Below, piece after piece: positions 10,410 to 64,000 of a stretch of 64,000 nt of DNA. Source of the DNA: Opitutia bacterium ISCC 52 (GTDB taxonomy: Bacteria > Verrucomicrobiota > Verrucomicrobiia > Opitutales > UBA2995); assembly GCA_014529675.2 (NCBI GenBank), contig CP076040.1:4615501-4679500 (forward strand), read 5' to 3'. Numbering within the stretch: the first letter of the stretch is position 1; each line of letters opens with the position of its first letter. The position numbers were made by a program, and so were the translations under genes. Under the pieces are notes generated by a model. That model made no database searches. It was not told where the DNA came from and was given only the letters and a program-made list of their open reading frames with translations.

Positions 10410-11549
10410 ATGATCTCGGACAAATCCATTGATATTTCGAATAAGGTAATTCTCGTCATCGACGACAGTTCCCTAGACCGGAAACTGATATCAAAAGTCC
10501 TGGAACGAAAAAGTTTCCAGGTGTTTTCTGCTGCTAGTGGAGAAGAAGGTATTTCCATGATTCAGGAGGTCTTGCCCGACCTGATTCTTTTGGATATTAT
10601 GATGGAAGGTATGGATGGACTTGAGATATGCCAACATCTGAAAGGGATGCCCGAGTGTAAGAATGTGGCCATCATCTTCATGACTGGTAAGACCGATTCG
10701 GATACCATTCTGCAGGCTTTTTCGGAAGGGGCATCTGACTACATTACCAAGCCTTACCGAATCAAAGAAGCGATGGCTCGTATCGAGACCCACTTGAAGG
10801 TCCGTGCCCTGCTCGAGCAACATACTGAATTTATTAAGGCTCTAACTCAGGCGAATACTGAGAAATCAAAATTCTTGGGTATAGCTTCTCACGATCTTAA
10901 AAACCCTTTGGTTTCCATCAACGGATTGGCTCACTTCCTCGCCTCTGGAAAGTTTGGCAACATGAGTTCCACTCAGGCCGAAATGGTTTCCAGTATATAT
11001 GAAGCCTCCGAAGCCATGCTGGCTCTTGTGAATGATCTATTTGACGTGGCTCTTATTGAAACGGGTCAGCTCAAAGTTGAAATTGATGAAGTCGATTTAT
11101 ACAAACTGGTGAAGACTTCTGTGAATCTCTATCGAATTACAGCGGAAAAGAAGGAGATTCAAATTGAGTTTGTTGATAATGATATTCCCGATATCGTTCG
11201 ATGCGACAAGCGACAAGTACGTCGGGTGATGGACAACTTGCTTAGCAATGCCATCAAGTTTTCTGAAGCAGGTACTACGATTCGAGTAATCATCGAGAGT
11301 GACAACAATTGGGTCTTCTTCCGCGTGGCCGATGAAGGACCAGGTGTTCCTGAGGATGAGTTCGATAAGCTGTTCGAGAGTTTCTCAAAGACTTCTGCCC
11401 AGCCAACTGGTGGAGAAACCAGTACTGGTTTAGGTCTGAATATCTGCAAAAAAGTGATGAAGGCCCATGGCGGTGACATCTATGCTGAGAATTTGCCGGA
11501 AAAAGGAGCTCAATTTTCTGTCCAACTACAAAATTCTGCCGTTAGCTAG
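10410..11549 (+). CDS. response regulator-histidine kinase (REC-HisKA-HATPase)
   Basis: 379 aa. The N-terminal receiver domain has Asp18/Asp19 in LVIDDSS, the phospho-acceptor Asp62 in DLILLDIMMEGMDG, and the conserved TGK and KPYR at its end. A short helix leads to a dimerisation domain with the H-box His161 in GIASHDLKNPL. The ATPase domain has the N-box DNLLSNAIKFS, DEGPGVPE and TGLGLNICKKVM. No sensor or membrane segment is present, so it is cytosolic and probably receives phosphate or signals from a partner. Its target is unknown. The next gene starts six bases downstream. Confidence 0.92.
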   Translation: MISDKSIDISNKVILVIDDSSLDRKLISKVLERKSFQVFSAASGEEGISMIQEVLPDLILLDIMMEGMDGLEICQHLKGMPECKNVAIIFMTGKTDSDTILQAFSEGASDYITKPYRIKEAMARIETHLKVRALLEQHTEFIKALTQANTEKSKFLGIASHDLKNPLVSINGLAHFLASGKFGNMSSTQAEMVSSIYEASEAMLALVNDLFDVALIETGQLKVEIDEVDLYKLVKTSVNLYRITAEKKEIQIEFVDNDIPDIVRCDKRQVRRVMDNLLSNAIKFSEAGTTIRVIIESDNNWVFFRVADEGPGVPEDEFDKLFESFSKTSAQPTGGETSTGLGLNICKKVMKAHGGDIYAENLPEKGAQFSVQLQNSAVS

Positions 11550-45581: not shown

Positions 45582-46391
45582 ATGCCTTATAACAACACTC
45601 GATTAGTACTTCGTTACAGATACGATAAAGTTCGTATGCTGCCGTTGGTGCTGACGGTGTTGATGCTTCTACCAGGGTGGATTCTCGCTGAAGAGGAAAC
45701 GGATCGTCCGTTCAATGTCGGCGATCATTTTAACTACGACATCAAGTGGGGCTTTCTTAAAGTAGGTGAAGCCGAGATGCTTGTAGAAGCGGTGGGTGAC
45801 GACGAGTCCAGTGATCTTAAATTTATTCTACTCATCAGGACAACCTCATGGGCAGATACGTTTTATCGAGTCAGGAACCGTATCGAGAGTACCACCGATG
45901 CGACCGTCACCAAGTCTCTCCATTACTCCAAAAATCAGCTGGAAGGTGGAAGGAAACGGGAGATTGAGGTGACCTTTGATTGGGATAAGAATGAAGCCCA
46001 ATATTCCAATTATGGTGAAAAGCTACCTCCCGTAGCGATCGACGAACTCAGTCATGATCCTTTCTCAGTACTTTTCGCCTACCGGTTGAAGGAATTCGTT
46101 CTTGGAGAACATATCAAAATACCTGTAACCGATGGTAAGAAAACCGTTGTCTCGGATATTAGGGTCATGGAGCGTGAAAAGGTAAAAGTGAAGGCTGGTC
46201 GCTTCGATTGCGTGCGTGTTAGGCCCGATATTAAGGACTTGGGTGGTGTGTTCAGTAAGAGTAAGGATTCGAGTATGGACCTATGGTTTTCCGACGATAA
46301 TCATAAATTGATCGTTAAAATGTCGAGTTCGGTGAGCGTTGGAAGCTTTAAGGTTGAGTTGAGAGACTACGTTTTAGGGGATTCAGGCTAG
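45582..46391 (+). CDS. exported DUF3108 protein
   Basis: 269 aa, or 251 aa if the second ATG at 45636 is used; the latter gives a cleaner signal peptide (MLPLVLTVLMLLPGWILAEE). DUF3108 sequences are visible: NVGDHFNYDIKWGFLKVGEA near the start, YRVRNRIESTTDATVTKSLH, DPFSVLFAYRLKEF, and a final strand pattern KAGRFDCVRVRPDIKDLGGV, with DLWFSDDNHKLIVKMSS. The domain is a beta-barrel-like periplasmic or outer-membrane-facing fold of unknown function. Confidence 0.8.
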   Translation: MPYNNTRLVLRYRYDKVRMLPLVLTVLMLLPGWILAEEETDRPFNVGDHFNYDIKWGFLKVGEAEMLVEAVGDDESSDLKFILLIRTTSWADTFYRVRNRIESTTDATVTKSLHYSKNQLEGGRKREIEVTFDWDKNEAQYSNYGEKLPPVAIDELSHDPFSVLFAYRLKEFVLGEHIKIPVTDGKKTVVSDIRVMEREKVKVKAGRFDCVRVRPDIKDLGGVFSKSKDSSMDLWFSDDNHKLIVKMSSSVSVGSFKVELRDYVLGDSG

Positions 46392-46519: not shown

Positions 46520-48426
46520 ATGTCCCTCGCAATCAATCAGGACAATCCTCAGTCCAGGCAAGGTAGCATTGTGGATAAAGCTGAACGCAGGTTGGTTGAG
46601 TTGCTGTTTCTAAATAGTGAGATCTCGCTCTATGCCATGATGGTAATTGGGGAGGATTCTGGTGGATACTTACTCGTTCGGTGCCCTACTTTTGGCCTAG
46701 CGTATGGGTGGTTGCAGTCTGCGGTCTTCAGCTTATCCGGGTTTTCCATATTCGCAGCTTCCTGAAGCTGTCAGATGAGCAACGCGGGGATTGTGTTTCA
46801 CATGTAAAACAATTCTGGTTACTGGGTTCATTCAGTGCACTGACTTGGTCTTCGGCACTTTTGTTTTTCTACAATCCGGTCAATGAATCTTTCTTTATCG
46901 TTTATGCATTTGTAACAGCGGGCATTGCCTGTGTGGCCATTTCTTCCCTGGCATACGTCCCGAAGACGTATCCCATTTTCATTACCATCATTTTGCTGCC
47001 ACTTTCCTGGTTTTTTTATTCCAAGGGTGGAATGGAAAATATATTTCTTGGAACCACCGTTATGGCTTTCATTGGTTTCGGAACCGCCTTATCGCACCGA
47101 CTACGGGCCAACGTGACTCAATCCATTTCTCTCGAGCTGACCAACTTCGAGCTGGCTGAAACCTTGCAAAAGTAGAATACCAAAGCGGAAGAGCTAAACG
47201 TGGAACTGGTTAAAGAAATGGAGAAGCATGAAGAAACAGAACAAGAGCTTAAGGTTGCACTTGGAGAAGTTGAAGCTGCCAGTAAGGCGAAGTCGGATTT
47301 TCTCGCTATTGTGAGCCGTGAGATTCGGACATCCATGAATGGTATTCTAGGGATGCTCGATTTGGTGACGGATTCTGAGCTAGACAAAATGCAGAGGGAT
47401 TACCTGGATACAGCAAATCGCTCTGCTGAAACCTTACTTCGTCTACTCAACGATTTGTTGGATTTTTCAAAAAGCAACTAAGGAGGCCTGAAACTTGAGA
47501 GGACCGCTTTTCTATTTAAAGAGACTGTGGAGGAAATCGCTTCTCTTATGGCAGGTCGTGCCAAGAAGAAGGGATTAAAATTTTCATTCTCTTGGGATGA
47601 CACTGCACCTGATTGGGTATCAGGAGATCCAATACGCTTTCGCCAGATCATTGGAAATTTACTTGGCAATGCCGTGAAATTCACTGAGGAGGGCGAGGTC
47701 TCCGTTGCTCTGACCCACCTGGTTAGGGAAGACGAACTTATCCGCTACCATTTTGAGATAATGGACACGGGTATTGGAATCGATCCGGAGGCTATGGATA
47801 CACTTTTTGAGCCGTTTACTCAGGCGGACTTGTCTATGACCCGAAAGTACGGTGGAACAGTTCTGGGCCTTGGAATCTCCAAAGAATTGATCGAATTGAT
47901 GGGAGGTGGCATTGATGTATCGAGTGAGTTGCAGGGTGGCTCAAAATTCTCTTTCAACATTGTATTGGGTGAACCAGGTGCATTCGAAATTGAGCGCAAA
48001 ATAGCTCGAGCAGATGAGCTGCGAGGCCAAGACCATTTTCATGGTAGGGTCTTATTGGTAGAAGACGATGCGGTTAACCAACGTGTGATCCGTCTGCTTC
48101 TTGAGCGGCTAGGACTAGAAGTTCAAATCGCTGAGAATGGGCAGATTGGCTTTGACTACGCTGTTCAGAATAATTGGGACCTCATTTTTATGGATTGCCA
48201 GATGCCTGTACTCGATGGCGTCTCAGCCACACGGAAGATTCGTGCCTATGAAAAACAGCACGGCTTATCTCACACCGCCATTGTGGCGCTTACCGCCAAC
48301 GCTAAAGATTCTGATCGAATTCTATGCAAAGAGTCTGGAATGGACGATTTTCTGGCCAAGCCCGTTCGAAGGTCTGAGCTTTCAGGTGTGCTTGAGACAT
48401 GGCTTCAAGAGCCTATTCGTGTTTAG
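46520..48426 (+). pseudogene. hybrid histidine kinase, decayed
   Basis: The ATG at 46520 starts an N-terminal membrane sensor, but the frame changes near 46660-46680. Further helices continue from there (FWLLGSFSALTWSSALLFFY, YPIFITIILLPLSWFFY). In that frame a TAG (47173-47175) follows AETLQK and a TAA (47479-47481) follows LLDFSKSN, with coding resuming each time. The H-box reads AIVSREIRTSMNGI: the phospho-accepting His is Arg (CGT at 47317-47319) and the usual Pro is Ser. The ATPase G-box reads GGTVLGLGIS instead of GGTGLGLAIS. The C-terminal receiver (LLVEDDAVNQR, DLIFMDCQMPVLDG) is intact. It would have been about 635 aa. Confidence 0.88.
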
Positions 48427-49412
48427 TGGGCATCGGAATCCCCGTGTCTCAGGACGTGCACTGTAATTTCAGGCGGACAGAAAAACCGAAGCGGTAGCCT
48501 GCAACCACCCGTTCCCCTCGAGGTGTAGCCCTTGAGGTCGCCGTATTTCCAATTACCAGCCAGCATGTAGCTAGGGCAATCGCCATTATGCATCACCACA
48601 ATTCCGCCAGGTAAACAAATTTGTCCACCATGAGTATGGCCGGCTAGAACCAGGTCGTATCCCAATTGCAGAGCTTGTTGATGTGTTTCTGGTGCGTGGG
48701 AGAGTAGTATGCTAAATGCATCCTCAGGAACCGTGCCCCTTAATTTGTCGAAGTCATCTCCTTCGTAGAAATGAGGATCATCAATTCCGTAGATGTATAT
48801 CTGCTTCCCGTTTTTTTCATAAGTAACGGTTTCGTTTAACAAGATGGGCAGTCCCAAACTTTCAAGTGGTGGAACCAGCTCGATGGGATCATGGTTCCCC
48901 AATATGCCGTAAACAGGTTCCTTTAATGCTCCACACACCCGGTGCATGTATTCGAGGCAATCGCTTATGCAGCCTTTCGTATCGTCCCGGTAATCACCCG
49001 TAATTAAAGCGAGGTCGTAATCCAAATCTTGAATGATGCTTGCAATGACAGAGGTAAGGGCCGGATCCAGATCGAGATGTAGGTCAGAGATCTGCAGTAT
49101 TCTTAACCCATCCAGCTCAGGAGGAAGAGATGAAAAAGATATCTCATTTGTGACCAGCTGGACGTCCATGAATTTACGATAGCCGCGCTGATAGATCCCG
49201 AGAGCTTGGCATATAAAGCGAACCGACTCGAAAAAGAAGGGGATGCGGTCAGGATTGAACGGATTCTTACTTTGGAATACCTGTTTACTCTCTTGGAGTG
49301 CTTGCTTCTCTAACCTGAGGCTTAGAGCTTCTTTTCCAATACGGCGAACCAGCTCATCGGGGAGCTCTTGAGGGATTCTCGATTCAGGCTGCGTCGCATC
49401 TGCTCTCTGCAT
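48423..49412 (-). CDS. calcineurin-like metallophosphoesterase
   Basis: 329 aa. All metal-binding motifs of the superfamily are present: LQISDLHLDLD, ALITGDYRDD, GILGNHDPIEL, LLSHAPETH and LAGHTHGGQICLP. The N-terminal 110 residues are polar and lack a clear membrane helix. The domain resembles YkuE-type phosphoesterases, some of which act on UDP-diacylglucosamine, but the substrate is undecided. It converges on the decayed kinase with a four-base overlap of stops. Confidence 0.85.
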   Translation of the reverse strand: MQRADATQPESRIPQELPDELVRRIGKEALSLRLEKQALQESKQVFQSKNPFNPDRIPFFFESVRFICQALGIYQRGYRKFMDVQLVTNEISFSSLPPELDGLRILQISDLHLDLDPALTSVIASIIQDLDYDLALITGDYRDDTKGCISDCLEYMHRVCGALKEPVYGILGNHDPIELVPPLESLGLPILLNETVTYEKNGKQIYIYGIDDPHFYEGDDFDKLRGTVPEDAFSILLSHAPETHQQALQLGYDLVLAGHTHGGQICLPGGIVVMHNGDCPSYMLAGNWKYGDLKGYTSRGTGGCRLPLRFFCPPEITVHVLRHGDSDAH

Positions 49413-61283: not shown

Positions 61284-62618
61284 TCAAGCAGTTACAAACT
61301 TTTGGTGAACCAATTCGCGATGGTAATTGGCCAGCTCTTCATTGGTTATCTTTTCTAAGATTTCTTCAAAAAATCCGAATACCAGGAGCTTTTGGGCAGT
61401 AGGCTTATCGATGCCGCGTGCTAGCAGATAGAAGAGTTCATTCTCGTCGATTTGGCCAGTGGTGGCTCCATGGCTGCACTTCACATCGTTGGCCAAGATT
61501 TCCAAACCTGGAAGCGAGTTGGCTTCTGCAGTTGGGCTTAGCAGCAAGTTGCGATTGGTTTGATAAGCATCCGTTAACTGGGCTTCTTCGGCCACTTTGA
61601 TGAGTCCTGAGAAAATGGTTTTCGAAGTATCCTGCAGTGCGTTTTTGAAAAGCAGATTCGAACGGGAGTTGGGTGCGTTGTGCGATTGGAGGGTTCGTTG
61701 ATCGATCTCCTGCTCTTGGTGTGCTACCGTCAGTGAAAGGATTTCGGCGTTGCTTCCCGCTCCTTCGATTACAGTGTGCCCTTCATTCCGTGCATGTTTA
61801 CTTCCCAGATTCAGCCCATAGGCAGTGATGTTGGAATCGCGTTCCGCCACCGTGGTAAGCCGGTTGAAAGAAAGAGATGCTTCATCCCAATTTTGCACGT
61901 AGTGATATTCCACATTGGCTCCTGGACCGGCGTAAAGGGTGCTTACACCGCAGGCCAGCTGTGCAGATTCCTTATCACTGGATCCGTAGATATCAACGAA
62001 AGTGACCTTACTGTTGTCCTTAGCGATCACGAGTGTGTGTGGGAATACCGCTGATTCTCCGCCATGGGCCCAATGGTAGCTGACTAATGGGAGCTCGATT
62101 TCCACGTTGGCTGGCACAAACAGAAGGGTTCCATTTCGGTTTAACGCAGTGTGAAGCGCGGCAAACTTTTCGGATCCCAAGGCTGATTCCTGAGCCATGA
62201 AAAATTCTTCCAGAATCTCAGGGTGTTTGGAAAACGCCCGTTCCAGCGGTTCAAAAATTACACCTTTGGCGCTGAGTTCCTCCGATAACGCTTCCTCCGC
62301 TACCAGGTCATCGTTTCCGAAAATCAATTTACCTGAAGTTTCCTTTACGTTCTGTGAGTTCTCAATGAGCGATTGCCACTCTTCTTCGCTCAAGCTCGGT
62401 GCCAGGCGAAAGCCTTCAACGCCGAGTCCTTTCACATTGGCAAAACGCCATGTCTCCATTTTTCGATTGGGAGCAGGCAAGGCCAGGTAATCGGCCCAGC
62501 TATTTTGCTTTTGCTTAACCAGCCACTGGGGCAGTTCAGAATGGCGATTCAGGAAATGGTCAAATACCGCTTCTGATAAAAATTCAGAGTCACTTTGTGC
62601 TGTGATCATGGATTGCAT
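61284..62618 (-). CDS. sufD: Fe-S cluster assembly protein SufD
   Basis: 444 aa. The SufBD beta-helix is recognised by VNVEIELPLVSYHWAHGGES-like strand repeats (VPANVEIELPLVSYHWAHGG), the RNEGHTVIEGAGSNAEILSL region, and DVKCSHGATTGQIDENELFY, LLARGID, the most conserved SufD sequence with the His of SHGAT. SufD partners SufB and SufC in the scaffold where clusters are built. It starts 24 bases after sufB. Confidence 0.94.
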   Translation of the reverse strand: MQSMITAQSDSEFLSEAVFDHFLNRHSELPQWLVKQKQNSWADYLALPAPNRKMETWRFANVKGLGVEGFRLAPSLSEEEWQSLIENSQNVKETSGKLIFGNDDLVAEEALSEELSAKGVIFEPLERAFSKHPEILEEFFMAQESALGSEKFAALHTALNRNGTLLFVPANVEIELPLVSYHWAHGGESAVFPHTLVIAKDNSKVTFVDIYGSSDKESAQLACGVSTLYAGPGANVEYHYVQNWDEASLSFNRLTTVAERDSNITAYGLNLGSKHARNEGHTVIEGAGSNAEILSLTVAHQEQEIDQRTLQSHNAPNSRSNLLFKNALQDTSKTIFSGLIKVAEEAQLTDAYQTNRNLLLSPTAEANSLPGLEILANDVKCSHGATTGQIDENELFYLLARGIDKPTAQKLLVFGFFEEILEKITNEELANYHRELVHQKFVTA

Positions 62619-62642
62619 CGTCTCTATGTTTCAATGGGGTGG

Positions 62643-64000
<1,358 letters not shown>

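Follow-up and report, generated by a model that had tools for sequence, protein, structure and literature searches.

When a gene carries a stop codon and lacks catalytic residues, this is usually regarded as proving that its death coincided with the oldest lesion. The kinase locus at positions 46520 to 48426 of a 64,000-nucleotide stretch of Opitutia bacterium ISCC 52 (the window; contig CP076040.1) raises the question of whether such dating holds. The locus was compared among six genomes of the genus (G000 to G005), of which G000 is the 4.8-Mb single-contig genome containing the window.

Architecture and lesions of the kinase gene

The locus encodes a hybrid histidine kinase comprising a membrane sensor, a HisKA domain, a HATPase_c domain and a receiver, in this order, all on the forward strand. 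The N-terminal coding part (46520 to 46651) starts at the ATG at 46520 and runs from RLVELLF to SLYAMMVIG, where the frame is lost; homologous N-termini are found in G002, G003 and G004. The membrane sensor (46656 to 47172) follows in the kinase frame, with several hydrophobic helices that matched no Pfam family. The HisKA dimerisation and phospho-acceptor domain (47287 to 47481), the HATPase_c domain (47623 to 47961) and the receiver domain (48049 to 48384) precede the natural stop TAG (48424 to 48426). In the read-through protein these three domains have Pfam E-values of 5e-17, 3e-26 and 1e-23, respectively, all far beyond the Pfam cut-offs. The gene is flanked on the left by a DUF3108-like gene (45582 to 46391, forward strand), conserved in five of the six species and not found in the G005 assembly. 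On the right lies a metallophosphoesterase gene (48423 to 49412, reverse strand), which is conserved and absent from G003. Both neighbours are assigned to their families by resemblance.

The best NCBIfam matches are the hybrid sensor kinases BarA, TorS and LuxQ (NF008318, TIGR02956 and NF041947), which show clear homology and the same order of HisKA, HATPase_c and receiver domains. However, the G000 scores are far below the equivalog cut-offs, its sensor has no Pfam family, and its catalytic His and reading frame are lost.

Three separate breaks leave the gene without a single open reading frame. A 1-nt loss in a GGGGA run (46649 to 46655) causes a -1 shift, the only frame change in the gene, and the kinase frame is then interrupted by TAG at 47173-47175 and TAA at 47479-47481, both found by direct reading and by script. 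An earlier reading of the sequence alone had reported two in-frame stops and one shift, as found here, except that it placed the shift at 46660-46680, slightly downstream of its actual position. The catalytic changes that it described were also recovered by direct reading and by script: the H-box codon at 47317-47319 is CGT (Arg, context VSREIRTSMNG) and the G2-box codon at 47860-47862 is GTT (Val, context GGTVLGL). An additional lesion, which that reading had not listed, replaces the next conserved Pro after the H-box by Ser (47332-47334). Thus the G2 box, GTGLGL when intact, is GTVLGL in G000; in G005 it is GTGVCL.

Alignment with relatives' kinases, a check that the sequence-only reading had proposed, shows that the H-box His is present in all 110 homologues and in G005 and G004. 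Conservation among these homologues is 100% for His213, 100% for Pro218 and 98% for Gly394, so that the changes in G000 are not ordinary variation. The kinase locus is now a pseudogene in G000: its parts are joined by no frame, it lacks the phospho-accepting His, and its ATP lid is damaged. From established kinase chemistry, autophosphorylation should be impossible. A second apparently broken kinase, at 10410-11549 of the window, was a false alarm, the TAG there being the gene's own stop.

The same locus in related genomes

The closest relative is the sister species G005, whose gene is 93% identical. It carries the same TAG (L010:461-463), yet it keeps the His, the Pro and the Gln at the TAA site. 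The G005 assembly is fragmented and its contig starts inside the kinase gene, which leaves the 5' end of the gene out of this comparison. The TAA and the His to Arg, Pro to Ser and Gly to Val replacements are private to G000. Judged by this distribution, the lesions differ in age, the TAG being common to both species and the remaining point lesions confined to G000.

G004 is more distant (62%). Between the same neighbours lies an open frame of 598 aa that retains every catalytic residue and has GAG at the TAG position; compared with this less disrupted orthologue, the G000 gene is broken. Roughly the first 40 codons of the G004 gene are severed by the loss of a different nucleotide, about 12 nt upstream of the one missing in G000, and the 598-aa frame starts at a TTG that overlaps the resulting TGA. 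At this 5' end (L011, reverse strand) the overlap of the short-ORF TGA with the TTG has the form TTGA, which could permit a coupled restart. A programmed frameshift at the N-terminus was considered and rejected, since G002 is unbroken where G000 loses its frame, and G000 and G004 have lost their nucleotides at different positions.

The other three genomes retain only remnants. In G002, about 55 N-terminal and 50 C-terminal codons remain, with a large deletion between them. Only the last 23 codons are left in G001 (E-value 2e-8). About 19 N-terminal codons of G003 are recognisable by eye only, in a part that the query used did not cover; this genome has lost the kinase and the metallophosphoesterase together. 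After the G003 DUF3108-like gene (L156), most of the kinase and the entire metallophosphoesterase are missing, apparently through one deletion that ends just upstream of a ribBA-like gene. On this comparison, loss of or damage to the kinase locus has occurred repeatedly in the genus and by several routes, namely deletions in G001 to G003 and an N-terminal shift in G004. Within a single genus, the locus provides a small natural series of alternative ways to lose one gene, to which the G000 loss would belong.

Relatives of the sensor outside the genus are few and weak: a search of 273 genomes of the order found them in 5, all from a single other family. A scan of genome contigs for close orthologues returned only distant kinases, and a literature search found nothing on the kinase locus. 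Two hybrid kinases of 604 to 628 aa, L198 of G223 and L199 of G271, both from another family of the order, share the architecture of the G000 gene, with weak sensor similarity (25-26%). Unlike it, they are unbroken, with intact H-box and G-box; they are similar kinases rather than established orthologues.

Selection on either side of the shared stop

We compared the G000 and G005 kinase genes codon by codon. This analysis revealed 154 synonymous and 46 nonsynonymous differences, with a dN/dS of 0.066, similar to the values of 18 neighbouring ORFs (0.012-0.107). Two of the ORFs in the window, at 61287-62630 and 62646-63998, have a dS versus G005 of 0.57 and 0.69, whereas most others nearby are at 0.2-0.5; their dN/dS is very low (0.036 and 0.012). 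Within the kinase gene, dN/dS is 0.034 before the TAG, in the sensor, and 0.084 after it. The domain values, a calculation that the sequence-only reading had also suggested, are 0.07 for HisKA, 0.081 for HATPase_c and 0.109 for the receiver. That reading had singled out the receiver as intact. Its phospho-acceptor Asp and Lys are indeed retained, but the domain is not specially preserved, its dN/dS being if anything above that of the others.

Differences by codon position show a third-position excess on both sides of the stop (7/2/54 before the TAG, 28/13/97 after). When G004 is added as the third species, a codon model in which both branches have omega = 1 fits worse by about 131 lnL units and is rejected, also when each half is taken alone. 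G004 is saturated at synonymous sites, so that branch-wise omega is poorly fixed and models with one neutral branch fit nearly as well. The resolved changes are divided about equally between the two branches, with 16 versus 14 nonsynonymous changes and 23 versus 29 synonymous codons. Relative to the neighbours, constraint is mildly relaxed downstream of the TAG (p = 0.011) and not relaxed in the sensor (p = 0.61). If the TAG arose once, a dN/dS of 0.066 between its two carriers contradicts neutral evolution ever since that first lesion. Purifying selection thus acted on the whole gene, on both sides of the TAG, through most of the period after the split and until recently; with an ancestral TAG, it would have acted across the stop. 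Such a history is not accounted for by plain decay beginning with the TAG.

The replacements at conserved sites point to a different regime in the latest phase. Sites conserved in at least 90% of the 110 homologues (18% of sites) received 3 of 13 G000-specific and 5 of 12 G005-specific replacements, together 8 of 25; by comparison, of the 119 replacements on the long G004 branch, 2 struck such sites (p = 1e-5). In G000 and G005 these rates equal or exceed the random rate, so that constraint has lapsed in both lineages. Since few replacements have accumulated, the lapse was late, and since the private lesions differ, it occurred independently. The test indicates a lack of constraint in the most recent phase only. 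The decay proposed by the sequence-only reading is therefore correct for the present state of the gene; the unequal age of the lesions and the purifying selection until recently were not part of it.

A probably tolerated stop and the alternatives

The TAG is common to two species, with dN/dS below 1 on each side. We consider it probable (about 0.6), from comparison of two carrier genomes whose tree cannot separate one shared event from two parallel ones, that the TAG is ancestral to G000 and G005 and was long tolerated before the recent death of the gene. The sense codon, GAG in G004, would have become TAG just behind the membrane sensor in their common ancestor. A long phase would have followed with both halves under purifying selection, during which some downstream product was most likely still made, by low read-through or by restart at a GTG 24 nt past the TAG (47200 to 47202). 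This candidate start has a weak Shine-Dalgarno-like sequence; it is present in G000 and G005 and absent from G004. Finally, each lineage would have lost constraint separately and recently, G000 acquiring the TAA, the His to Arg and Gly to Val replacements and probably also the shift, and G005 acquiring G396C and neighbouring changes.

No suppressor tRNA with a CUA anticodon was found among the 37 tRNAs, nor by a pattern search. Recoding of TAG was rejected on this ground and because TAG is the normal terminator of the kinase gene and of its left neighbour. Spreading of the TAG by gene conversion was likewise rejected, as the identical run around the stop is just 14 nt.

Other histories have to be weighed against a tolerated ancestral stop. 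Several lesions, catalytic residues among them, would suit a gene killed by the TAG in the common ancestor and drifting neutrally ever since, which is the sequence-only view carried back to the shared stop. Such drift predicts, from the numbers of synonymous and nonsynonymous sites, about 500 nonsynonymous differences versus the 46 observed, and the dN/dS of 0.066 and the rejection of omega = 1 make it barely credible. Sequencing or assembly error is also very improbable. G000 is judged from its assembly alone and the G005 assembly is fragmented, yet the TAG occurs in two assemblies of different species, the 18 neighbouring ORFs are intact, and along 17.3 kb of G005 every other syntenic ORF is open in both species, so that the lesions are specific to the kinase gene. 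With these clean neighbours, the shared stop and the changes at invariant residues, the earlier preference for true decay over error stands. Alternatively, both lineages may have kept a complete, working gene until a short time ago, each then losing it independently and acquiring the same TAG by chance. The low dN/dS would then need no tolerance of a stop, the genus loses this gene repeatedly, and replacements appear unconstrained in both lineages. However, the low dN/dS allows few neutral changes, and the chance of the same nonsense change arising twice within so short a neutral phase is about 1e-3 to 1e-2; independent events account for about 1.5% of shared stops in a survey of prokaryotic genes (PMC7918605). 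We regard parallel death as unlikely.

A last alternative gives the fragments a function today, the sensor and the kinase-receiver part acting without phosphorylating, in the manner of RocA, which binds CsrS and so modulates it. The low dN/dS of the two halves, the lack of any sign of relaxation in the sensor half and the binding of CsrS by the membrane part of RocA (PMC6635533) would fit. In G000, however, the shift removes the start of the sensor, the TAA interrupts the frame where HisKA ends, and invariant sites are replaced as under no constraint, which leaves a present function improbable.

We conclude that the hybrid histidine kinase gene is genuinely broken and died recently, and that it is an ordinary pseudogene of a common kind. 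Its one unusual feature is a shared stop that seems to predate a long phase of purifying selection, in which case a count of lesions would give the wrong date for the loss. Prokaryotic genes with conserved in-frame stops and dN/dS below 1 have been described (PMC7918605), and the G000/G005 stop is likewise shared, with dN/dS well below 1. In that survey most conserved stops are very young, 71% being without a mismatch in a 30-base window, whereas the G000/G005 TAG has 4 mismatches within about 30 bases, and dS between the two genes is about 0.5. If ancestral, it would be among the long-lived conserved stops.

More tentatively, the TAG may have split the ancestral kinase into a membrane sensor and a soluble kinase-receiver protein, both used for most of the time since the species split, a natural fission between sensor and core that was later lost. 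Parts of one kinase on separate products, as proposed here, are found in the split histidine kinases CheA3/CheA4 (PMC3591291) and Hik36/Hik43 (PMC7656254). These pairs separate the phosphorylated from the catalytic domain, whereas the cut in G000 lies between the membrane sensor and the kinase core.
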